Virus record (IMG/VR): IMGVR_UViG_3300011254_000005
Span: 1 to 23,652 of that record
Source of the DNA: a virus
Strand: one strand, 5' to 3'
Length of the DNA: 23,652 nucleotides
The notes below the pieces were generated by a model. That model did no database searches, had not been told where the DNA came from, and saw only the letters and a program-made list of their open reading frames with translations. Below, one piece after another: positions 8,296 through 21,661 of the stretch (position 1 is the first letter of the stretch; every line of letters starts with the position of its first letter). Made by a program: the position numbers and the translations under genes.

Positions 8296-9471
8296 TTACA
8301 CTCTTTCCATGTTTATATCTAACTGGTTATAATCTACCATCATGTGTCCAAAGATATTTTCAGATACTGCTGATGGTTTTACTTTTTTAACTTCTTGTGC
8401 CATTACACCAGTGTATTTTTGTGGTGACCAATTATACTCAAACTCATATACATTTAATCCAGATTTAGATTTAGATTTGTATTTAATATTTTTCTTTAAT
8501 CTTCTGTCTGATTTTGATATTCCAGCAGCAGCTATATCTCCAACTGCTTTCATTTTAGCTCCATATCCTGCTATTTGATTTCCATATATATTTGTATCAT
8601 AAGCACCTTGTTGTTGTGTAGCTGCAAAGATTGGCGGTGGAGCTATACTTGTTGCAGGTACATTTAATCCTGTTGTAGCTACACTAGGAGGAGGAGCTGC
8701 TTGTCCTGATAAAGTAGCAATTTCACTAAGTGGTTGACTTCTACTTAGTAAATAATCACTTAATTGTCTATCTCTAATTCTTTCTTGTTCTCCTACTAAT
8801 CCTTGTCCTTCGCCTAATTGATAACTTCTCATACCTGTAGCTCTTTGTAATTGAGCATCAGCAAGTGCTTGTCCTTCTCTAATAGATTCACTAGCTAAAC
8901 CTCTTAATGTGTCTTGATGGCTCATTCTAAGCTCTGCAAGTGCATTGTTATGTGCTACTGAGCCTTCTGGTATACCTGCGTTAATTAATCGTGTTTGTAA
9001 ATCTATAACTTCTTGTTGTTGTGAAGGTTGTATTCTTTCTAATGCTCTATTATAATAATCGCCTTCTACTCTAGTTGCATAACTATTTATATCTTCCATT
9101 GTAGGTAACGCAGTTAAACCACTTCTGTCTATAAGACCTGGTTGTGCTGATAATCCAGATAATGAAAATGTTTCTTGTGGCAAACCTGATAAATAATTAC
9201 TAGCTGTATCTAAATATTTATCAGTAATACCTACTTGTTTTTGTCTTTGATCTTCATACTCAGGAGCTAAACTATATGTTTGTGCAAATCTATCGTTACC
9301 TAAATCTGTTATTAATGTTTGGTCATAAGGAGAAAATACATCAGGTCTATTCATTCTACCTTCTACCCTAGCTGTTTCTACATTAGCTGCTCCTTGAGCT
9401 TCAGCTGCACCTGCATAATCTGGTGCTGGTGGTGGTGATGGAGATTTAAATAAATTTCCTACAAATGCCAT
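8296..9471 (-). CDS. Virion protein with C-terminal S74 intramolecular chaperone
   Basis: A 391-aa protein. The C-terminal 71 residues, starting SDRRLKKNIK at 321 and containing YEFEYNW and TGVMAQEV, form a Peptidase_S74 domain. In that family the domain helps a trimer fold and then cuts itself off in front of the serine. The Ser321/Lys326 pair has the spacing of the known Ser-Lys dyad, so release of about 71 residues is predicted. The N-terminal 320 residues are helical and polar, with Pro-rich linkers (PSPPPAPDY near 11-19, PPPIF near 277-281), rather than the beta-helix of a tailspike. Similar proteins are annotated as tail fibre-domain proteins in marine podoviruses; a tail needle or ejection role is possible. 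Confidence 0.82.
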   Translation of the reverse strand: MAFVGNLFKSPSPPPAPDYAGAAEAQGAANVETARVEGRMNRPDVFSPYDQTLITDLGNDRFAQTYSLAPEYEDQRQKQVGITDKYLDTASNYLSGLPQETFSLSGLSAQPGLIDRSGLTALPTMEDINSYATRVEGDYYNRALERIQPSQQQEVIDLQTRLINAGIPEGSVAHNNALAELRMSHQDTLRGLASESIREGQALADAQLQRATGMRSYQLGEGQGLVGEQERIRDRQLSDYLLSRSQPLSEIATLSGQAAPPPSVATTGLNVPATSIAPPPIFAATQQQGAYDTNIYGNQIAGYGAKMKAVGDIAAAGISKSDRRLKKNIKYKSKSKSGLNVYEFEYNWSPQKYTGVMAQEVKKVKPSAVSENIFGHMMVDYNQLDINMERV

Positions 9472-9806
9472 TATACTTCCTTCCTTAATAAGACTGCTTG
9501 TTTTTTATAACCTTTTAATGCTTTTTCCCAACCCATTCTTCCTAAAATGTCAACATATTTATATTTTTTTTCTTTTGCATAAGTTATAATCTTTTTTTCT
9601 AATTTTTTCAAACTATTTAATTCTCCTCCTGCTAAACCTATACGTAATGCATCTTTGTAATCTGCTGTAATAACTACACTTTGTTCATCCATAAATATTT
9701 GGTATGTTCCATCATCAATACCTTTTTCTATATTTTCTTTTGTTAGATTTTCTCCAATACTTGTCGCTGGTTCTAATAGTTTCCATACTTTGTCTGTAAG
9801 CATCAT
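9471..9806 (-). CDS. Small GNAT-like protein of the internal virion block
   Basis: A 111-aa protein. The first half has IDDGTYQIFMDEQSVVIT, typical of the opening strands of small GNAT-like phage proteins. The second half has ELNSLKKLEKKIITYAKEKK, then YKYVDILGRMGWEKALKGYK, matching the helix and 'GR.GW...L..YG' end of truncated acetyltransferase-like proteins found near ejection proteins. I do not see a complete acetyl-CoA pyrophosphate loop (Q/R-x-x-G-x-G/A), so enzymatic activity is doubtful. It begins MM within the stop of the upstream gene (ATGA overlap) and shares a base with the next start. The assignment to this family is from pattern memory. Confidence 0.7.
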   Translation of the reverse strand: MMLTDKVWKLLEPATSIGENLTKENIEKGIDDGTYQIFMDEQSVVITADYKDALRIGLAGGELNSLKKLEKKIITYAKEKKYKYVDILGRMGWEKALKGYKKQAVLLRKEV

Positions 9807-11374
9807 AAACCTACTCCTTTTTCATAATAAATATCTACACTATGCCATTTAATACTTTGTGCTTGTGTACTAGTTTTAATTCTTATTGCTGCGTTCCATC
9901 CTATATCTGCAACACTTCTCCATACTAATTGAGAAGATATAGTTCCTGCCCATAATCCTACATCCCATGCAGTATTATCCCATTCAGAACCTGTAGTAGT
10001 AGCACTAGATGGTGTATAAGTAGAAGTACCATCATTAAAGTCTACATCAAATCCTATACTAACTGGTAATTGTGCATCTGATGATACAATAGGTCGTATA
10101 GCTGTAAATCTTTTTGATGTACCCCTTCCACCATAATAAACAAATGCTGTTTTTGCACTTCCTTGTATTTGTACTCCTGCATCACTAAATCCACTATCTG
10201 CTTTATATACTTTAGTATTACCACCAAAATATAAATCACCATTTAATAAACCCCAACAGTACGCATCTTGTCCTGTAAATCTACCCCATGCACCTGTGGA
10301 TAAGTTTACTACAAATTGCACAAATTCACCTGATACTCCGTTAGGTATATTAAATAAACCAAACTGTCCTTTAGGATAAATTAATGCTTCCCAACCAAAA
10401 GTAGATTTAAAATTAGTTACTGCTGTTATAATACTGCCACTTATTTTGTCTGATATTGCTTTAGAATAATTAGCTTCATTTTCTGCATACATTTGTGTTA
10501 ATGGCACAAAACCAGATTCTGTAATAACAATTAACTCTGGCCCTACATTAACAACACATCTTTTACCAATAGGCCTTGCTATTTTAAATACACCAACTAA
10601 AGCCCATTTATTAGCATCACTTGGGTCTGTTCCTTGATACACAGCTACTTCACCTTCTGATGTTATAAATGCTATGTAGTCATCCGAACCAGAACCACCA
10701 TCTCTTGTTAAGCTACCAGCTGCTACTAATTTACCACCAAAGTTAAATACACTTCCTAATGGAAATGTAGATACTGTTCCTGCTACTGCATTTATAGGTA
10801 AATAACCAAAACTTAAACTATCATTTATTATAAAAAATAATCGTTCTTTAAATACTGTTACATTGTTTAATGTAGAGCCTGTTACTCCACTTAAAGTAGG
10901 AGTTGCCCATGCACTACCATTATAATGTCTTGGAGCATCAGCACCATTTACTATAAATAAAAATGAACCTCCTGATGTTGTAAAGTTTACAGATTCCCAT
11001 TTAGCATTACTAAGTCCAGTTAAAACTGGAGAATTAGAAACACTTGCCCAACTAGATGTGTCCCATGATGCAGTGTCCCATGATGCTCCTATAGCACCAG
11101 CAGATGTAACGTCATAAATTTCTCCACTACTAGCAGCAAAAAGTTTATTAGCACTAGGAGATTGATATGTTAATAAACTTTGTATTGTGCTAGGCAAACC
11201 AGTTACATGGTTTGTATAACCTTTTCTTAAACTTACATCTGTAGAACCAGGAAAGAAATTATCTAATCGTATAGCATCAGTTTGTGGCATCAAGTCCACA
11301 GCATCTCTTGTGTTTAATCCACCAATAGGTGCAGATTGAGATGTACTTTCTCCTGTAGGATTAAATATTGCCAT
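9803..11374 (-). CDS. Putative tail hub / tail tubular protein (gp10-like)
   Basis: A 523-aa, beta-rich protein opening with FNPTGESTSQSAPIGGLNTR, then VDLMPQTDAIRLDNFFPG and LRKGYTNHV. That start is typical of the tail hub or 'tail tubular protein B' of short-tailed marine phages, often labelled packaged-DNA stabilisation protein gp10-like after P22 gp10 (472 aa). Repeated blade-like segments follow, consistent with a beta-propeller. Two aspartate-tryptophan stretches occur: SWDTASWDTSSWASV near 96-110 and EWDNTAWDVGLWAG near 464-477. It probably caps the portal/adaptor and carries the fibres. Its start lies inside the 57-aa gene upstream (14-base overlap). Confidence 0.8.
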   Translation of the reverse strand: MAIFNPTGESTSQSAPIGGLNTRDAVDLMPQTDAIRLDNFFPGSTDVSLRKGYTNHVTGLPSTIQSLLTYQSPSANKLFAASSGEIYDVTSAGAIGASWDTASWDTSSWASVSNSPVLTGLSNAKWESVNFTTSGGSFLFIVNGADAPRHYNGSAWATPTLSGVTGSTLNNVTVFKERLFFIINDSLSFGYLPINAVAGTVSTFPLGSVFNFGGKLVAAGSLTRDGGSGSDDYIAFITSEGEVAVYQGTDPSDANKWALVGVFKIARPIGKRCVVNVGPELIVITESGFVPLTQMYAENEANYSKAISDKISGSIITAVTNFKSTFGWEALIYPKGQFGLFNIPNGVSGEFVQFVVNLSTGAWGRFTGQDAYCWGLLNGDLYFGGNTKVYKADSGFSDAGVQIQGSAKTAFVYYGGRGTSKRFTAIRPIVSSDAQLPVSIGFDVDFNDGTSTYTPSSATTTGSEWDNTAWDVGLWAGTISSQLVWRSVADIGWNAAIRIKTSTQAQSIKWHSVDIYYEKGVGL

Positions 11375-11534
11375 TATTATTTATTGCTTCGTTTATTGAT
11401 TCATCTAAAGTTTTGTTAAAATCTGGTATATCTAATAATTCTTCTGCTCCTAATTCTTCTGGAGGATTACCACCATATACTAAATCTAAATAATTTTGTC
11501 TTGTTACTGGAATTTTATTTTTTTTCATAAACAT
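11361..11534 (-). CDS. 57-aa conserved acidic protein
   Basis: A small acidic protein reading MFMKKNKIPVTRQNYLDLVY, then GGNPPEELGAEELLDIP. The 'NYL.L.Y.GNPPEEL.AE' pattern is a recurrent small phage protein found beside tail and neck genes; its function is unknown. The frame stays open up to an ATG at 11594, but that start would overlap the upstream gene by 50 bases. I chose the ATG at 11534, 11 bases after the upstream stop, because conserved relatives begin near this 'MFM'. The ribosome binding site is weak (GGGAA about 15 bases upstream), so expression probably relies on coupling. Confidence 0.75.
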   Translation of the reverse strand: MFMKKNKIPVTRQNYLDLVYGGNPPEELGAEELLDIPDFNKTLDESINEAINNNGNI

Positions 11535-11544
11535 AATAGTTTCA

Positions 11545-13461
11545 TTATTCCCAGCTTGGAGGGTTGATTCCCCCTGCTCTTTTTTCAATTTCATCTAACA
11601 CCTCTTGTAATGTTAATTTATCATTTCTGTAATCATACCATAATTTACTTATATTTTCTACATTCTGCTCGTTTTGTTTGTATCCAGAAGTAAATAAACC
11701 TCTTATAGCTTCCCATGTAATAGATTGCATTTCTCTAGGCAGTATATTTCTTTCTTTAGCTGCCTTTCTGTATGCTTCTGCATAAATTCCGTATGTACCT
11801 TTATTACCACTTATAGAAGAATTTTTAGCTGCTCCTTGCCAGTCTTTTTGTCTTTTTCTTATTTCTGGTGATGTTCCAAAGTTGTGATAAACTGTTGTGC
11901 TATTACCACTAACTGGTTGTAGTGTTGCAGCTGCTACTGCGTGTGTATCTATAGTTACATCTCCATTTTTAGAATTAGGAGAAATAATGTTGTTATAAAA
12001 ACTTCTAACTTTATGTCTGTCTCCTAAATGATTAGTAATTTTTTTTGCATCTCCTCCACTATCCATTGATAATAAAGCAGATTTTATCATATGATTACTA
12101 CCCCAACCAATCTTAGCATTTTCTCCTTTATCTGTTTTTACAAATTTTCCAAATTTTCCTTCTGGTGTTAACACTTTAAAACTTTTATCATTATATGTTT
12201 CATCATATACTCTAGTCCATATAGCTTTTGCATCTAAAGAATCTAATTCTGATAGTTTTTTACCATCTATGTTTTTTAACATTTCTTTAAATACTGGTTT
12301 ACCATAAAGCTCTTTAGCTTTACTCATCATTTTTTTATCAAAAATAAAATCTTGTTTATTTTTATTAATATCTAAAACTCTGTAAGCTAAACTAGCATTC
12401 ATGTACCAATCTTTTTGTGGTGATAAAGCTGCTATAGTTCCTGCTACAGATGATGTTGGTATATTAAATTCTTTAGACCATGTATTAGCTACTTTATTAG
12501 CTCCGTCATACCATTTTTTTGATCTTTTTCTAGTGTTTTCTGGAACTTTATCATGCAAATATAATAAATTATTTTTAAGATGGTTAACATAAGTATCTGC
12601 TATTTCATCTGTTGTTTTATTGGTTATTTCATTTAATTTTAAATTTGGATACTCACTAATTATTTTTACATTGGCATCAAATTGAGGTTTTAATATTTTA
12701 CTTTCTGCTAAACCTACATTTAATATATTATTAATGCCATCTTCATTACTATTTACAGCGGTAGGTAATCTAGCAGATATTAATTCTGGTTCTGGAACAA
12801 AAATATTATTTGTATTATTTATTGGTTCAAAATTATTTACTTCTGTTTTAGTAGTAGGAATATCTATATTATCTTCTAATGTTTGTATTTCTGGAGATGT
12901 ATCATTTTTAGGTAATTCTATATCGGTAACGTTAAAACCTTGTGTTTTATCTCCAGTAAAGTTAGCTAATATTTGTTTTCCTGTTTTACTTTGTAAGATT
13001 AGTTTGCCACCTTTTGATAAACCTTTAACTACAAATCCAGCACCTAATAATAATGGAGCTAATGGCCCTGCTACTGCACTACCTAACATTAATCCTTCAC
13101 CTACTGTTCCAGTTCCTGTTAATAATGTTTCTGCTCCTTTTACTAAACCTTCAGTAGTTTTACCTTGTCTTAATAAATCTACTGTAGTATTAAATTGGTC
13201 TCTATAAGATGGTGTATATCCTTGACCTTTTATTACATCAGGTCTATAACCTAATGCTTCTGCTGTGGAGCTTCCTAATAAAAAATCACTTCCTAATTGT
13301 GTACCAAATCTTAAAGCATTAGTAAAAAATTTATTTTTAGGTTTAGGTAAGTTTTGATTTCCTACACCATATTTCAAAGACCTAGCTTGATTATTTATAG
13401 GTTGGCTATTTCTTAATGTATTAGCTATCATTTGTTTTTGTTCTTCTTCATCTATAATCAT
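11545..13461 (-). CDS. Virion-region protein with a putative HhH-glycosylase-like C-terminal domain
   Basis: A 638-aa two-part protein. Residues 1-170 resemble podovirus ejection proteins: polar helices, then a hydrophobic Gly/Ala segment at 118-149 (GEGLMLGSAVAGPLAPLLLG). A low-complexity linker follows (180-260). Residues 280-638 form a conserved phage domain (I recall the label DUF7178) with WYDGANKVANTW (317-328), VAGTIAALSPQKDW (339-352), HKVRSFYNNI (483-492), VTIDTHAVAAA (502-512) and REMQSITWEAIRGLF (576-590). The segments 339-352 and 480-512 look like the helix-hairpin-helix and D-T-H parts of endonuclease III-type glycosylases, with Lys484 and Asp505 as candidate catalytic residues. 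That reading is inference. The gene sits between neck and hub genes and starts in the stop of the 42-aa gene (ATGA). Confidence 0.85.
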   Translation of the reverse strand: MIIDEEEQKQMIANTLRNSQPINNQARSLKYGVGNQNLPKPKNKFFTNALRFGTQLGSDFLLGSSTAEALGYRPDVIKGQGYTPSYRDQFNTTVDLLRQGKTTEGLVKGAETLLTGTGTVGEGLMLGSAVAGPLAPLLLGAGFVVKGLSKGGKLILQSKTGKQILANFTGDKTQGFNVTDIELPKNDTSPEIQTLEDNIDIPTTKTEVNNFEPINNTNNIFVPEPELISARLPTAVNSNEDGINNILNVGLAESKILKPQFDANVKIISEYPNLKLNEITNKTTDEIADTYVNHLKNNLLYLHDKVPENTRKRSKKWYDGANKVANTWSKEFNIPTSSVAGTIAALSPQKDWYMNASLAYRVLDINKNKQDFIFDKKMMSKAKELYGKPVFKEMLKNIDGKKLSELDSLDAKAIWTRVYDETYNDKSFKVLTPEGKFGKFVKTDKGENAKIGWGSNHMIKSALLSMDSGGDAKKITNHLGDRHKVRSFYNNIISPNSKNGDVTIDTHAVAAATLQPVSGNSTTVYHNFGTSPEIRKRQKDWQGAAKNSSISGNKGTYGIYAEAYRKAAKERNILPREMQSITWEAIRGLFTSGYKQNEQNVENISKLWYDYRNDKLTLQEVLDEIEKRAGGINPPSWE

Positions 13462-13586
13462 GTTGTTTTCTTTTTATATCCAGAAGCATATATTGCTTTT
13501 GCTTGTTTATTAGCCTTTGTTTTAGTTTTATATACTTTTCCTTTTGTTCCAAACCTATAACCACCTTTTACTTTTTTAACAGGCAC
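13458..13586 (-). CDS. 42-aa basic protein with GTG start
   Basis: A tiny lysine-rich protein, M(V)PVKKVKGGYRFGTKGKVYK, then TKTKANKQAKAIYASGYKKK. The KGGY.(F/Y)G..GKVYK...A.KQA.AIYASG pattern is, from memory, a frequent small protein of podovirus structural regions. The GTG at 13586 shares its first base with the TAG stop of the upstream gene, and the TGA stop overlaps the next ATG (ATGA), so both junctions support translation. There is no ATG in a sensible place. A DNA- or virion-binding role can only be guessed from charge. Confidence 0.78.
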   Translation of the reverse strand: MPVKKVKGGYRFGTKGKVYKTKTKANKQAKAIYASGYKKKTT

Positions 13587-14041
13587 TACCTAATACCTAA
13601 CATTTTTGCTAATACATTTAATGGTAATTCTTTTAACCTATTTACTAATATGTCTTTACTTCTAATAGGGTCTGAAATCATATCTACACCACTTGGTAAA
13701 GGCATACTATCTTGAGACATACCCCTTTCATTTAATTCATCTCTAAATGGATTTGTTCCTACTTCAGGAACTGTACTCATACTCATATCCCTTTGTCCAT
13801 ATCCAAAACCACCACCAACATTATTAGGGTCTATATTAAGTTGTGCAGGTTGTTTTGTTATACCCATAGCTCTACTTAATACAGTTCCTTCTGGGTTATA
13901 ATCACTATCAATTAAACTTCTAGTAGCATCTTGAAAAGAACCAAACTCAGGTCTATCACCAAAAGCCTGATCTAACATATCTTCTTTCAATGCATCTCTT
14001 CTAAGCTCGTTAGCTAATCTTTCTTTTTCTTCTTCAGTCAT
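13586..14041 (-). CDS. Conserved Met/Asp-rich protein of the neck region
   Basis: A 151-aa protein of unknown function. It begins MTEEEKERLANELRRDALKE, has a polar middle (QATRSLIDSDYN-like and GGGFGYGQRDMSMSTVPEVG), and ends in a helix (RSKDILVNRLKELPLNVLAK). No known catalytic motif is visible. It has a good ribosome binding site (AAAGGTGAG) before the ATG, one of the few internal genes not coupled by overlap. It is placed between the putative head-tail adaptor and the ejection block, so a minor virion role is possible but unproven. Confidence 0.75.
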   Translation of the reverse strand: MTEEEKERLANELRRDALKEDMLDQAFGDRPEFGSFQDATRSLIDSDYNPEGTVLSRAMGITKQPAQLNIDPNNVGGGFGYGQRDMSMSTVPEVGTNPFRDELNERGMSQDSMPLPSGVDMISDPIRSKDILVNRLKELPLNVLAKMLGIR

Positions 14042-14056
14042 AACTCACCTTTATAA

Positions 14057-14761
14057 TTAAAGTGAGAAGTTTCCTTCTGGTTCGTTAACAGGTAGATATA
14101 ATCTGTTTGGTCCTGCCATACGAATGATTTGCTTCGCACCATCTTTGGATTGCTTTTCTGATAATTTCAATCTGTATTCTTGAAACTGGTTATCATAAGG
14201 CAAACCCTTTTGTTTTAAAAATCTCCATATTACACCAAGTGTAATTAAATCTTCGTCTAATACTGTTGTATTTGCATCTGCTGCAAAGCTAGTTGCGTTA
14301 GCTGTTGAGCCAGATGTTATCGCCCAGTTTTTACCTATGTATTCAAAAAACACAGATTCTCCTGCTGGGGGAGCTGGGTGAAATAATAACGCATTACCTC
14401 TTATTCTAAAGTAATTTGTTATACCACTACTAACACTTGCTTTTAGTCTTTGCCATTGTGCGTTGTTAAGTGGTCCGTAATACTTTCTATCTGTGGTTCT
14501 GTTCCACATAGTATCGTTACTAAATCTTAAAAAATCAGTAGCTATGGTACTCATATCTCCTTGCGATTCTGCTGCAAGTGTTGTATGTGCTTCTTCTTTA
14601 ATTAATGTTTGCCAGTCATATCCTGCAACAAGGTTTTTACCTTCTCTATTGGCAGCTGCTAATAATTGTATGTTAGTAGTATCAGTACTACCTACTACAG
14701 TAGAAGGAGAGGGTACTCCTATCTCATTAGCTGCATCTTGGCATATGGTTAATAAACTCAT
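14057..14761 (-). CDS. Putative head-tail adaptor (P22 gp4-like)
   Basis: A 234-aa protein starting MSLLTICQDAANEIGVPSPS. This start (LL.ICQ.AA.EIG...PS.VVGS.D....QLLA.AN.EG..L) is typical of phage head-completion or tail-adaptor proteins that bind below the portal; P22 gp4 has this job but is shorter (166 aa). The middle contains WQTLIKEEAHTT, FLRFSNDTMWNRTTDRKYYG and NYFRIRGNALLFHPAPPAGE, followed by a helical C-terminus with KQKGLPYDNQFQEYRLKLSE. It overlaps the upstream gene by ATGA. Adaptor assignment rests on pattern memory and gene order. Confidence 0.8.
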   Translation of the reverse strand: MSLLTICQDAANEIGVPSPSTVVGSTDTTNIQLLAAANREGKNLVAGYDWQTLIKEEAHTTLAAESQGDMSTIATDFLRFSNDTMWNRTTDRKYYGPLNNAQWQRLKASVSSGITNYFRIRGNALLFHPAPPAGESVFFEYIGKNWAITSGSTANATSFAADANTTVLDEDLITLGVIWRFLKQKGLPYDNQFQEYRLKLSEKQSKDGAKQIIRMAGPNRLYLPVNEPEGNFSL

Positions 14762-15683: not shown

Positions 15684-16637
15684 TTATGCTTGTATGATGC
15701 CTTGTCTTGCTCTATTTGAACAAGTCATATTACCTGCCCAAACGACTGGCAATACCATAGCATCTTGGTTAACAGAAGCCTTCTCACCTAAAGGAGAGAA
15801 TTCTCTACCTTGAGCTGGACGAAGGAATAAATAGTCTGAGTTTAACATATACATTTTATCACTCGGACATTGGTCGTCATAGTATACTGGTGCATCCATA
15901 AACATTAAGTTCATAAATCCAGCACTAGCACTATCATCACTTGTAAATCTTTGGTTAGTCTGTAAAGAACTCCAATAGAATTGAAAGTAATTAGTGTCTG
16001 CTACGATAACATCAGGGTGATCTGCACCTCTAGTTGTACTTAACCATAGTGTGTTCATAGCTGTTTGGATAGTAGTTGCACCAGGTGTTGCACCTGCTGC
16101 TGAAAAATCATACACTTGGTTTTTCCAGAATGTATAAGTACCTGCGTTAATACCACCAACTGTATTAGTGTTTGTACCAGCTACAATCAACTGTAGTCCA
16201 CCTAGTTCTTTTCCATCAGTACCTGTGCCATCAGCATATAAGCCAGTAGCCATAGTATTTTTTAGAGTTTTTTCTAAGTTTCTTACTCTTGATTTAAGTA
16301 AGTTAAAGATTGCTTCTTTACCAGAGTTTTCGACCTGTTCTAAACCTGATATAACCACATTACCAGCTAATTGTTTATAATTAAACTCAGCTGCTGTGAA
16401 TACATTAGATGTAGATGTATCTAATACCTCGTAGCCACTATACCATTTTGCAGTTGAGTTACTTGCGTATTCTAATTCCTGCACAATTGTTCTACCTGTG
16501 GCGATTTGTTTGTTGCCTTTTTCATCAATATGACGAAGTAAGGCATTACTGTTAGTTACGTTATCTGCAAGAGTTTTTGAATATCCTGCAAGAGTAGTTG
16601 TAACTATTTCAGTAAACGTACTATTTGGACTTGCCAT
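15684..16637 (-). CDS. Major capsid protein, HK97-fold family
   Basis: A 317-aa protein in the expected position after the scaffold gene, with a ribosome binding site GAGGT seven bases before the ATG. The N-terminal arm (1-40, STFTEIVTTTLAGYSKTLAD) is followed by QIATGRTIVQELEYASNSTA, a long spine-helix-like segment (EAIFNLLKSRVRNLEKTLKN near 108-128) and a C-terminal domain with HPDVIVADTNYFQFYWSSLQ and FMDAPVYYDDQCPSDKMYML. This resembles the major capsid proteins of marine podoviruses that use the HK97 fold. It forms the head shell around the scaffold. Confidence 0.9.
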   Translation of the reverse strand: MASPNSTFTEIVTTTLAGYSKTLADNVTNSNALLRHIDEKGNKQIATGRTIVQELEYASNSTAKWYSGYEVLDTSTSNVFTAAEFNYKQLAGNVVISGLEQVENSGKEAIFNLLKSRVRNLEKTLKNTMATGLYADGTGTDGKELGGLQLIVAGTNTNTVGGINAGTYTFWKNQVYDFSAAGATPGATTIQTAMNTLWLSTTRGADHPDVIVADTNYFQFYWSSLQTNQRFTSDDSASAGFMNLMFMDAPVYYDDQCPSDKMYMLNSDYLFLRPAQGREFSPLGEKASVNQDAMVLPVVWAGNMTCSNRARQGIIQA

Positions 16638-17802: not shown

Positions 17803-18069
17803 TTATCCTCTTTTGTTATTGTTAATCATATTATCCCAAAACTTAGGTTTTGTAGAGCCTACATAATCGTTACCTACTTGCCTAACATTATGTTTCCTTT
17901 CGTGTTCTTTTATTTGAGAACGACTGCCTATAACAGTCTTGTCGATTGGAGACACAAATTCTTGTATATCACCCATAACTTGATGTGATTTTGTTCTTTT
18001 TGTTGCTTTAGCAAACTTATAGTTACTTTTACCCCATTGGATATTATCATAGTTTTTATTGTAACTCAT
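17803..18069 (-). CDS. Small conserved protein between portal and scaffold
   Basis: An 88-aa basic protein. The centre holds the conserved pattern DIQEFVSPIDKTVIGSRSQI, then KEHERKHNVRQVGND, which matches a small phage protein family with 'G..I.SRS..REH...HG..EVGN' that usually lies close to the portal gene. There are no cysteines, so it is not a zinc finger despite the His residues. It starts within the end of the portal gene (14-base overlap). Function unknown; a role in head assembly is inferred from its constant neighbours. Confidence 0.8.
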   Translation of the reverse strand: MSYNKNYDNIQWGKSNYKFAKATKRTKSHQVMGDIQEFVSPIDKTVIGSRSQIKEHERKHNVRQVGNDYVGSTKPKFWDNMINNNKRG

Positions 18070-20011
18070 CTACTGCCTCTTCACTTAATTTTTCTGCTAT
18101 TTTCATGTCACTTTGTAATAATGCTAGTTCTTTCTTTGCATCCATTCTACCCTGACTAGCTTGTGCTTCTGTAGATGTTTTATTACCTACAGTTCTTTCT
18201 CTTGATTGTATATCTGCTAGTTTACCTTGTTGTTTTAATTGTTCTTTAGCCATTTCTGTTTGCATTTTCTGTGCTGCTATTCTTTCACCTTCTGTAGGTT
18301 GTGGCCCAGCTTGTTTCATTGCCTGTGCTTGTTGCATTAGTGTTGCTTCTGTTCTATCTATTACATCTTCAAAATTTCTACCTACTTTCCAAGCACCCAT
18401 TAAAAATCTTAATGCTTGAAATGCTAATGGGGTAAGGTCTGGAGCTTTAGTTGCAATACCTACTGCTCTTTCTAAATAACTACCAAATGAAGATAAAAAC
18501 TCTATTCTAGTTCTTTTCTCTTCTTCTTCATCTGTAAAAATTGTAGCATCTGATTCTATATCTATACTGTAGCTTCTAAGTTTATCATCTCTTAATATTT
18601 GCATCATTTCTGGTGTAATAGTAAGTGCGGTCATAGCTGCTAATACTTCTGGTTCATAATGTTCTGCTATCAATTCAGCTTTAATTCTAAATAAATCTCT
18701 TATATATTCAGCTATTTCAGATTGTTTTCTACGCATACGCATACTACCAAATTGTGCTTTTAATTGCTGAGCTGTAGCAGTTTCACTAGCTTTTGTAGAA
18801 CCTCTGATAAGATCAGATATGCCTGTTATTTGGTAAATAGTGTCTAATACCTGGTTTCTTTGTTGATATAAACCAGCTAAAACTTGTGCAATAGGAGCTA
18901 TATCTTCTTGTTGAAATACTGCACCTAACCCACCTTTTGATGCTAATTGTGCAAAATTTTCTGAAGGTACAAAATCATTATCTCCTGCGTCTGCTAAATG
19001 TGATAATTCTGGTACAGAAGCATCATAAATACCCCTTCTTTTTAATCCTTCTATTAAATTACTTATTCTAGTTGTAATTCTATCTAATTCATCTGCTTGA
19101 TCTTGGTATAATGTAAATTCTGGTATAGGAACACTAGTTTCATTGGTTCTTATTGCTACTAGTGAATCAGGACAAGGAAAAAATTTTTCTAATCCATAAG
19201 GGTCATCATCTTCTGCTAGTATTTCGTTATAACCCTTTGATATGTAATATCGTTTTTCTTTGTATTTATCCCATATTTCCCATACTTCCGCCCTAGAAAA
19301 TACTTCAGAATACTCTTCAGAATAGCCTTCTGATGGTTCAGGAGACCAATTTAGGGGTATATTGGATGCATTTTTAAAGCCTTTTTCTATTAACTCATCT
19401 CTTGTAAGTAAGTGCCTTCTTGCCTTCCAATATACATCTTCTGGTCTTTTTGCTGGACTTTCTCTATAATCTTCCCAATTTACATACTCAAAATAACACC
19501 TTTGATCTGCAATTCTTTCTTCTTCTTGGTCAATCATTATCATATTGCCAAATTCATCCATAGATTCTACTTTTATAGTTTCTTTCATTAAAATAGGTTC
19601 ATAAACTACCCAAACTACACCTCTTCCTGGTAGTAAATAGTCCTCTAATGCAGCTTTTATTGGTTTATCTGCTGAATATACCTCATTTCCGTATTGTAAT
19701 GCTCTTTCTAGCACTATAGCTGTTTGTCTAGTTATAGGATTATTGTCATTGTATCTTCTGCGTACATCTGCTTTAGGCATACGAGCAAATAATGCACCTT
19801 TCATGGTTTCTGTGTTAGACCATAAGATATTAAACTGCTTATATAACCCTGCACCAAAGCTATCTGCACTTCTATCGTCTCTATAACGTGCTACAACAGC
19901 TCTTCCTCTGTCTCTCCAATCTTTTTCAGTTTGGTCGGCACTTTCTAATTCCATTTGCCAGTATTGTGCAGTACCTTGCACTACTTCCATTTCTTTTCTA
20001 GTTTCTGCCAT
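18056..20011 (-). CDS. Portal protein, P22-like
   Basis: A 651-aa protein that would form the dodecameric DNA gate at the head vertex. The N-terminus has WQMELESADQTEKDWRDRGR, then RYRDDRSADSFGAGLYKQFN and LWSNTETMKGALFARMPKAD, a pattern I know from P22-type portals of marine podoviruses. The central stem region contains the long helix ELDRITTRISNLIEGLKRRG. The region ISDLIRGSTKASETATAQQL (around 416-436) is the usual conserved portal motif. The C-terminal 90 residues are a Gln/Lys/Ala-rich helix, like the barrel of P22 portal (725 aa). It follows the small Met-rich gene and shares one base with its stop. Confidence 0.92.
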   Translation of the reverse strand: MAETRKEMEVVQGTAQYWQMELESADQTEKDWRDRGRAVVARYRDDRSADSFGAGLYKQFNILWSNTETMKGALFARMPKADVRRRYNDNNPITRQTAIVLERALQYGNEVYSADKPIKAALEDYLLPGRGVVWVVYEPILMKETIKVESMDEFGNMIMIDQEEERIADQRCYFEYVNWEDYRESPAKRPEDVYWKARRHLLTRDELIEKGFKNASNIPLNWSPEPSEGYSEEYSEVFSRAEVWEIWDKYKEKRYYISKGYNEILAEDDDPYGLEKFFPCPDSLVAIRTNETSVPIPEFTLYQDQADELDRITTRISNLIEGLKRRGIYDASVPELSHLADAGDNDFVPSENFAQLASKGGLGAVFQQEDIAPIAQVLAGLYQQRNQVLDTIYQITGISDLIRGSTKASETATAQQLKAQFGSMRMRRKQSEIAEYIRDLFRIKAELIAEHYEPEVLAAMTALTITPEMMQILRDDKLRSYSIDIESDATIFTDEEEEKRTRIEFLSSFGSYLERAVGIATKAPDLTPLAFQALRFLMGAWKVGRNFEDVIDRTEATLMQQAQAMKQAGPQPTEGERIAAQKMQTEMAKEQLKQQGKLADIQSRERTVGNKTSTEAQASQGRMDAKKELALLQSDMKIAEKLSEEAVDELQ

Positions 20012-20326: not shown

Positions 20327-21661
20327 TTATATCCTTTTTTCTGGTTTTCTAAGTTGTTCTCTATCGTGCATATCCATCATTTCATCTAGTGTTGGAGTAC
20401 GCAGTAATTCTTTCATAATATCTGGTTCTTTTTCTTTTGGTTTTATATTTTTATAAGACATAGCTAAGTACCTAAAACTATCACTACCATGTGATGCCCA
20501 ATTATGTAAAGGATTTCTTTTAAATACTCTTTTAACATCATCCCATTCTCTTTGATAATTCCTCAAAGCATTAATACCATTTTCACATCTCTTAACATCA
20601 AAATAACAATTTTGCAATAATAATCGTACAGCATTGATTCCATCATCAACTTTATGGTTTGGTACGATACGAGGTCGTCTACCCATATTGATTAAAGTTT
20701 CTGCTCTAGTTCTACCTGTACCTAGTTCTCGTACTTTAGCATCATGTGGTAGGTAATCATCACCCCAGTATTCTATTTGCATCTCATCCATTACTTTTAC
20801 ATAGTGGTCTAATCCCACTCCTGCACTTTCATAATAATCAAATATTCTTATCTCGCCCATAGTTACTTGGAAAAACCATAATGCACAACTATCAGATATT
20901 CCTAAATCCCATGCTACATGAACAGGTAAGCTAGGGTCTCTTTCTACTTTTGTAATTCGTCCTTCTTGTTCTGCTTCTATAATTAAATTACCATAGTATG
21001 AGCCTTTAATAGCAGCTGCCCATGAACACTCAAATTCTTGCATAAACTCATCTTCACCCATTTGTTTTTTTGCAGCTTCTAATTCTACAGGGTCTACTAC
21101 TCCTGTTTCACTTGCACGATAGATAGCTCTATGCCAATCAGGTTCATGTTTAGCATCTTCATATAATTGCCAGAATTGATTTCTACCTTTTGGTGTACCA
21201 ATAAATATTGCCCACCCTTTTCTATCGGTTAAGGCAGGTCTTATAACTTCTGACCACATTCTAGGAGACATATCTGCATACTCATCCATTACACAACCAT
21301 CTAAGAATATTCCTCTCAAGGCATCTGGGTCATCTCCTGCACCATACAATCGTATACGACTACCATTTATTAAATCTACTCGTAGTTCGGATTGGTTAAC
21401 TTTAGTACCAGGAATGTTTTTTGTATAATATAATAAATAATCCCAAGCCACAGCTTTTGCCTGTCGGTAGTACGGAGCAATGTATGCGTATCTACCATCT
21501 TTTCTTTCTGTTTTTATTTCTAATGCTTTACGTAATATTTCTGTTATCGCATACACAGATTTACCCCAACGTCTGTGTGATACACAAATCTTAAATCGTT
21601 TATCATTTTTATGTAAGTCTGCTTGTTGTGGTCTGGGTGTGTAAGGAATAGTTATGTGCAT
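20327..21661 (-). CDS. terL: Terminase large subunit
   Basis: A 444-aa DNA packaging motor with both domains. ATPase: a Walker A-like SHRRWGKS at 28-35, Walker B VMDEYAD at 124-130 with the catalytic Glu, and the coupling motif GTPKGRNQF at 155-163. Nuclease (RNase H-like): HVAWDLGISDSCALWFF with Asp252, DYLPHDAKVRE near 302-312, and HGSDSFRYLAMSYKN near 391-405 supplying the last Asp. It docks on the portal to pump DNA and cut concatemers. Length is normal for this family. It starts 10 bases after the small DUF6321-like gene upstream. Confidence 0.96.
   Translation of the reverse strand: MHITIPYTPRPQQADLHKNDKRFKICVSHRRWGKSVYAITEILRKALEIKTERKDGRYAYIAPYYRQAKAVAWDYLLYYTKNIPGTKVNQSELRVDLINGSRIRLYGAGDDPDALRGIFLDGCVMDEYADMSPRMWSEVIRPALTDRKGWAIFIGTPKGRNQFWQLYEDAKHEPDWHRAIYRASETGVVDPVELEAAKKQMGEDEFMQEFECSWAAAIKGSYYGNLIIEAEQEGRITKVERDPSLPVHVAWDLGISDSCALWFFQVTMGEIRIFDYYESAGVGLDHYVKVMDEMQIEYWGDDYLPHDAKVRELGTGRTRAETLINMGRRPRIVPNHKVDDGINAVRLLLQNCYFDVKRCENGINALRNYQREWDDVKRVFKRNPLHNWASHGSDSFRYLAMSYKNIKPKEKEPDIMKELLRTPTLDEMMDMHDREQLRKPEKRI

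Follow-up and report, generated by a model that had tools for sequence, protein, structure and literature searches.

A phage virion-locus protein with an exchangeable payload domain of predicted HhH-GPD glycosylase fold

The window analysed here is a 23,652-nucleotide stretch of viral DNA (IMG/VR record IMGVR_UViG_3300011254_000005), and all of its genes named below lie on the minus strand. It harbours a virion gene cluster, with the terminase large subunit (20327..21661), the portal protein (phrog_12082, 18056..20011), the major head protein (phrog_9953, 15684..16637) and a tail protein (phrog_6013, 14057..14761) upstream of the gene under study, and a phrog_5107 protein (9803..11374) and a virion structural protein (phrog_6121, 8296..9471) with an S74 chaperone-of-endosialidase domain downstream, as assigned with PHROGs and, for S74, Pfam. 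These neighbours bear out the initial annotation, which had placed the protein in a virion region. The gene itself (11545..13461) encodes 638 residues, none of them a cysteine, and the plus strand across the same positions is full of stops. Its product is composed of a leader (residues 1-207, 12841..13461) and a payload domain (residues ca. 262-638, 11548..12678), which is the single domain recognised by the Pfam scan, unlike some relatives, in which several enzymatic domains are found. A further ORF lies immediately upstream (13586..14041), and a 77-residue ORF in the +1 frame (11361..11594) runs across the end of the payload gene.

The payload belongs by score to DUF7178 (PF23802; E 9.5e-27, with 94.6 bits where the cut-off lies at 27), matched in three stretches with the best at residues 290-369, and to phrog_3842 (E 2.2e-26), a family without assigned function, which confirms that the conserved C-terminal domain proposed earlier is real. 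DUF7178 itself has no stated function, and a literature search for it returned no paper. The window form adds long insertions and the leader, in contrast with the short forms of the family, which are free-standing proteins of ca. 200 residues. Concerning other profiles, a search against HhH-GPD families had been suggested for this protein, and the Pfam model PF00730 is not matched; Q_salvage (PF10343, DUF2419) is absent from the Pfam matches at E up to 1, NCBIfam yields no match, and PDB sequence searches yield no significant chain.

Among 50,697 phage records, tblastn with the window protein matches four, namely Phage zth2-2, Rhodobacteraceae phage LS06-2018-MD07, Roseobacter phage CRP-738 and Microbacterium phage Cece. 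In LS06-2018-MD07 the domain is part of a frame of 3100 residues or more whose annotation is 'methyltransferase', two genes past an 'internal virion protein'; in CRP-738 it forms the end of gp40, flanked by portal and coat genes; and the 207-residue Cece relative is already annotated 'glycosylase'. With the latter as query, tblastn matches 124 phage records, and the 60 listed include SIO1 gp9 and proteins of cyanophages, Streptomyces and Mycobacterium phages, some of these short relatives being annotated 'glycosylase' or 'N-glycosylase/DNA lyase'. IMG/VR scans return at least 585 relatives among 600 stretches with the long-form alignment and at least 547 of 600 with the short form (80 kept in each case), and GTDB contigs hold 11 loci with relatives. 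The DUF7178 Pfam model matches two of 398 Pseudomonadota genomes, one of which (G001) was picked because a known locus was present, and none of 14 controls.

The AlphaFold model of residues 252-638 (pLDDT 95.4, pTM 0.92) supports an HhH-GPD superfamily bundle in the payload. A predicted fold lacking this bundle had been named as evidence against a glycosylase; it is present in the models of both the long and the short form. VIA comparison of the long form gives the DUF2419 queuosine glycosylase (Z 7.7-8.4, best row over 218 aa, 4.3 Å) and Pa-AGOG (Z 7.9-8.0, best row over 209 aa, 4.9 Å), followed by other AGOG-type rows (Z 4.9-5.9) and by unrelated rows from 3.4 down. Foldseek against predicted viral proteins finds long relatives (best E 1.4e-42) as well as short forms, e.g. 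S-CBP42 G8EYE9 (E 2.5e-6); against the PDB its top row is trichodiene synthase, an unrelated enzyme (E 0.18, prob 0.14), with AGOG next (E 0.20, prob 0.63). This ambiguous ranking is resolved by the compact short form, modelled with a 196-residue relative (L098) that is 98% identical to SIO1 gp9 (pLDDT 91.5). AGOG and Ogg enzymes fill its first five Foldseek ranks (prob 0.99-1.00, E 0.04-0.17; prob 1.00 with E 0.04-0.06 for AGOG and MjOgg), and VIA yields archaeal and Thermotoga Ogg enzymes at Z 11.2-12.3, with SsOgg at 12.3 (176 aa, 4.2 Å), MjOgg at 12.3 (175 aa, 3.7 Å) and Tm1821 at 11.5, then endonuclease III (10.1), MagIII (9.4), AGOG (9.3) and OGG1 (8.8). The best 50 rows listed are all HhH-GPD enzymes.

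It should be noted that Foldseek E-values against the PDB never go down to 0.001 for either form, and that VIA Z values of 8-12 can occur by chance for helical bundles, which often give middling scores. Hence the protein might be structural only, its similarity reflecting a common helical arrangement. Chance similarity is unlikely because the short-form VIA list is uniform and the catalytic residues are in place; with invariant residues at catalytic and pocket positions (see below) and short forms that exist free-standing as small genes, a merely structural role is highly improbable.

In the model, the second helix of a helix-turn-helix pair (residues 472-493, 11983..12048) begins with Lys484 (12010..12012), and Asp505 (11947..11949) lies just before the next helix, as assigned with DSSP, which is the arrangement that marks HhH-GPD enzymes. 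Both are invariant in all 74 long-form rows (73 distinct sequences, since L010 is identical to the window), so that the residues whose variation had been held to count against the proposal do not vary. Similarity clustering gave a second alignment of 74 distinct rows, 50 of them long forms and 24 short, which omits the near-identical L010 and likewise conserves in every row Lys484, Asp505, Phe488 (11998..12000), Gln579 (11725..11727), Trp583 (11713..11715) and Trp352 (12406..12408), the last in a conserved SPxxxW loop; the same six are found in 13 of 13 widely spread members. The distance of 21 residues from Lys to Asp given by the initial annotation is correct and holds in the 50 long forms, the 24 short forms having 17 and the 13 spread members 17-21. 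The helix-hairpin-helix-like motifs quoted there are also present in the ORF. The canonical G-h-G hairpin is not found, only Gly480 being conserved in the long form (GxxHK); the HhH of AGOG has likewise been described as noncanonical.

As to the nearest known enzymes, the endonuclease III-like HhH-GPD domain initially suggested stands with respect to the predicted fold, and the nearest solved folds are of the Ogg/AGOG kind and not endonuclease III proper. The payload shares with endonuclease III (Nth) the HhH-GPD bundle (short form, Z 10.1) and a VDTH-like stretch, and differs from it by the lack of the 4Fe-4S cysteines and of a PF00730 match; in a cysteine-free protein the Fe-S cluster of that enzyme is impossible. 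Profile similarity is also weak: short form against endonuclease III-type sequences gives prob 6.5 (P 0.0056) with Lys aligned to Lys and Asp to Asp, the long form prob 0.4 with no alignment at the Lys/Asp region, and MutY-type sequences prob at most 1.0. For this reason the fold assignment rests on the prediction and the conserved residues. The models support a payload that is Ogg/AGOG-like, with a long form also near DUF2419. SsOgg, MjOgg and Tm1821 have the fold of the short relative, with 13-14% identity and without the long insertions of the window form.

AGOG shares the fold (Pa-AGOG and Pab-AGOG; Z 8.0 long, 9.3 short) as well as two spacings, Phe four residues after the Lys and a hydrogen-bonding residue four before a Trp, a correspondence made by spacing and helix order and not by superposition. 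In Pa-AGOG, K140 and D172 have been described as functionally equivalent to hOGG1 K249 and D268, and by analogy with AGOG K140/K142, Lys484 would be the Schiff-base nucleophile and Asp505 the catalytic aspartate. The base in Pab-AGOG is reported to be sandwiched by F146 (K142+4) and W212, with hydrogen bonds from Q24, W62, K149, P172, D174 and D208 (W212-4); Phe488 and Trp583 are thus proposed to stack on the base, and Trp352 adjoins a loop between two helices, as W62 is part of the loop between helices 4 and 5. The differences are the Lys-Asp distance (17-21 in DUF7178 against 32 in AGOG) and Gln579 where AGOG has Asp208. Gln in place of D208 suggests, by analogy, a base other than 8-oxoguanine as substrate.

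A nucleoside, nucleotide or RNA glycosidase would also be compatible with part of these data, since DUF2419 ties with AGOG as best long-form match and the insertions could remodel the DNA groove; an amoebal DUF2419 protein has been described to convert queuosine to queuine, a salvage activity that the payload might resemble. The short form, on the other hand, prefers DNA glycosylases, DUF2419 is not among its best 50 rows listed, and the Q_salvage model does not match, all of which leaves such an activity doubtful. The absence of DUF2419 proteins from a search of 150 genomes carries no weight, as the controls gave no match either. The long-form rows also include the 5-PmdU glycinyltransferase gp46 of PaMx11 (8z2n and 8z2m, Z 3.9 and 3.4), raising the idea of an enzyme of this fold that hypermodifies DNA. 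This match is weak, the profile comparison with gp46 gives prob at most 1.0, a protein in a virion cluster would be oddly placed for the task, and the glycosylase Lys/Asp pair is invariant, so that we consider it very improbable; a literature search for the PaMx11 glycinyltransferase PUGT found no paper.

The virion setting recurs across the long forms. Neighbouring ORFs of 100-900 residues were taken from the same strand, at most two per side and without larger ones, at 39 of 40 selected long-form loci. Of these 94 ORFs, one tail protein family matches 14 and one internal virion protein family 10, and several tail fibre families are found among the 25 of 92 families listed. When nine upstream neighbours were scanned singly, two, both the second gene upstream (L018 and L053), matched 'internal virion protein', and the remaining seven matched no family. 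A near-identical phage of 32.9 kb (G404) carries a Mom-like DNA modification gene (L268:3528-4154; PDB 8bv8 Mom, E 3.6e-9), and because of this homologue a link to DNA modification was considered; Mom is matched in two of 30 contigs (one of 21 with DUF7178, one of nine with another payload), and was rejected as a general partner.

Long forms are also domains of large proteins that carry ART-PolyVal, LPD22, LPD38, methyltransferase, GNAT and DUF3293 domains, with GGDEF below the cut-off. ART-PolyVal exceeds the cut-off in three of nine scanned DUF7178 proteins (L003, L041, L182) and falls below it in one more (L001). This company, and the fact that some HhH enzymes accept bulky bases, would fit an enzyme that excises bases altered by the host in the phage DNA, e.g. 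by ADP-ribosylation or deamination; no host defence is linked to the family, and this eraser function is quite unlikely.

A scan with residues 1-211, which take in the leader, finds nine contigs, in which the leader is 72-100% identical (in L208-L212 only from residue 23 or 24 onwards) and the C-terminal part changes. Two of them, L206 and L006, have a DUF7178 C-terminus, the contig of L206 matching the window at 99.99% identity across 13.9 kb, which makes L206 not independent. The other seven have four other C-termini, shared as L207 with L008 (cut off), L208 with L209 (identical proteins) and L210, L211, and L212. In L207, L208, L210, L211 and L212 the gene directly after the payload is the window's phrog_5107 gene (86-95% identity) and the upstream tail protein is kept as well; the ORF at 13586..14041 is present in L207, L008, L208, L209 and L210 and absent from L211 and L212. 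An LKEIFDEEYK tail is common to the alternative payloads of L207-L211, and L212 ends in KDEEYK. Judged by their motifs, the alternative payloads of L207/L008, L208-L210, L211 and L253 may be ADP-ribosyltransferases; for L207, L008, L208 and L211 this identity found no confirmation in Pfam, PHROGs or the PDB. L007, which is the same contig as L207, has a match to phrog_2579 ('ParB C-terminal domain', E 2e-26).

Another leader, the second, taken from L040, is found at 40 loci, 36 of which were examined (all except L247, L249, L257 and L263): 12 have all three DUF7178 motifs, one, truncated, has a single motif, and 23 have none. By eye, 13 of these 23 are of one type, which hhalign relates distantly to DUF7178 (L228-L262 type, eight sequences; prob 94.9 against the long and 92.2 against the short form, with Lys and Asp aligned). 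In L228-L240 and L262 the alternative payload is itself a distant DUF7178 relative. L241 gives prob 47.9 (short) and 0.6 (long), and the other seven payload types show no similarity to DUF7178 (prob at most 6.0). A third leader (L053; 11 loci, nine examined) has DUF7178 in eight and is cut off in one, with no exchange seen.

The initial annotation had described the N-terminus as ejection-like and hydrophobic, which does not hold as a family trait. One hydrophobic stretch occurs in the window leader (residues 125-145, mean 1.8, a value without shuffle comparison); of the best stretches in 28 further long-form leaders, a single one reaches 1.6 and none exceeds the highest of the 50 shuffles of its own leader, and a general hydrophobic leader was rejected on this test. 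A loose glycine-zipper pattern, for which PMC10240207 offers a parallel, occurs in 25 of the 28, a count without control that is not used as evidence.

The small +1-frame ORF goes with the long-form payload. The window copy matches phrog_31685 at E 0.0042. A profile built from 19 such ORFs (whose own 19 matches are partly by construction) recognises one where the domain ends in 74 of 78 distinct long-form loci, always in the +1 frame and always with an ATG, located between 115 bases before and 26 after the end of the domain; it is missed in L026, L182, L183 and L186, and L075 has too little flank. In 41 of the 74 the payload frame stays open throughout the small ORF, and in these the small frame averages 49% identity between pairs, compared with 32% and 31% for the other two frames. 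Substitutions at its codon positions 1, 2 and 3 amount to 0.199, 0.135 and 0.416 (pairs 60-97% identical; 13,294 non-independent codon comparisons), and the two results together indicate selection on the small frame. The ORF occurs in none of 80 short-form loci and in none of the loci with other payloads (0 of 14 chosen, 0 of 30 examined, some cut off), and is found in 11 of the 12 DUF7178 loci of the second leader; it is absent from L001-L003, although the long form is present there. It has no Pfam match, and tblastn with the L018 copy matches no phage record. From its sequence pattern, it appears to be under selection in its own frame and to go with the DUF7178 payload, which makes it a candidate partner or antidote.

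These last observations bear on whether the enzyme might give first aid to the incoming genome, repairing its oxidised or UV-damaged bases, with the short forms acting as early-expressed proteins. The closest folds include 8-oxoguanine glycosylases, relatives occur in phages of sunlit water (SIO1, cyanophages, Lentibacter phages), and the short form of cyanophage 9515-10a lies ca. 1.5 kb from an RNA polymerase gene. A repair enzyme would be at odds with a slot exchanged for unrelated domains and with a small overlapping partner ORF, and 8-oxoguanine may not be the substrate, given that the invariant Gln replaces AGOG D208 by spacing; hence genome repair is unlikely. We infer that a conflict role, either host attack or interference with defence, is likelier than plain repair of the phage genome, because the slot holds unrelated domains and the payload has its own partner ORF; both traits recall effector systems rather than a repair function.

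Taken together, the locus is probably best described as encoding an HhH-GPD-fold enzyme that is an exchangeable virion payload. The constant leader with its exchangeable C-terminus would make a virion-associated effector, whose DUF7178 version would be an Ogg/AGOG-kind enzyme with long insertions. The protein would be packaged into the virion and leave it together with the DNA; a base would be flipped into the pocket formed by Phe488, Trp583, Gln579 and Trp352; Asp505 and Lys484 would break the N-glycosidic bond, and Lys484 would form a Schiff base, nicking the strand. If the role is one of conflict, the small ORF may keep the enzyme harmless until ejection, as inhibitor or chaperone. Payload exchange by itself is no proof of ejection. 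Attack on the host, taken by itself, is a possibility that we put forward tentatively.

The closest known parallel is given by the internal proteins of T4, IPI, IPII, IPIII and Alt, which PMC9026906 describes as having a targeting N-terminus with diverse payloads and as being ejected into the host, IPI countering restriction and Alt being an ART. They differ in that their targeting sequence has 10 residues against a leader of ca. 200, and in that here one locus holds exchangeable domains, with no cleavage site shown. Polyvalent proteins (Iyer et al. 2017, PMC5512222) resemble the family through its fusions with ART-PolyVal, LPD22, LPD38 and others, unlike the window protein, which carries one payload only; the main text of that paper contains neither 'glycosylase', 'helix-hairpin-helix' nor 'endonuclease III', and 'HhH' once, for RadC fusions. 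With respect to the literature compared (DUF7178, polyvalent proteins, phage glycosylases and T4 internal proteins), what appears new is the occurrence of the same leader and flanking genes with other payloads and the swaps of the second leader, the long form as a domain of virion-locus and polyvalent proteins, and the small ORF after the domain, selected in its own frame.

It is conceivable, though we hold it as less than even, that a virion leader delivers one of several enzymes and that the glycosylase version brings its own out-of-frame antidote, conserved even inside giant fusions, which would liken this phage system to polymorphic toxins. Through the payload slot, nature supplies a set of close phage relatives distinguished by a single, putatively delivered, domain, and the conserved out-of-frame partner can be tested as inhibitor or chaperone. 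For a large phage family without known function (at least 585 related stretches), the analysis proposes a testable enzymatic identity. The actors described so far in the arms race of ejected proteins are restriction inhibitors, methylases and ADP-ribosyltransferases; if the proposal is true, base excision would be linked to it as well.
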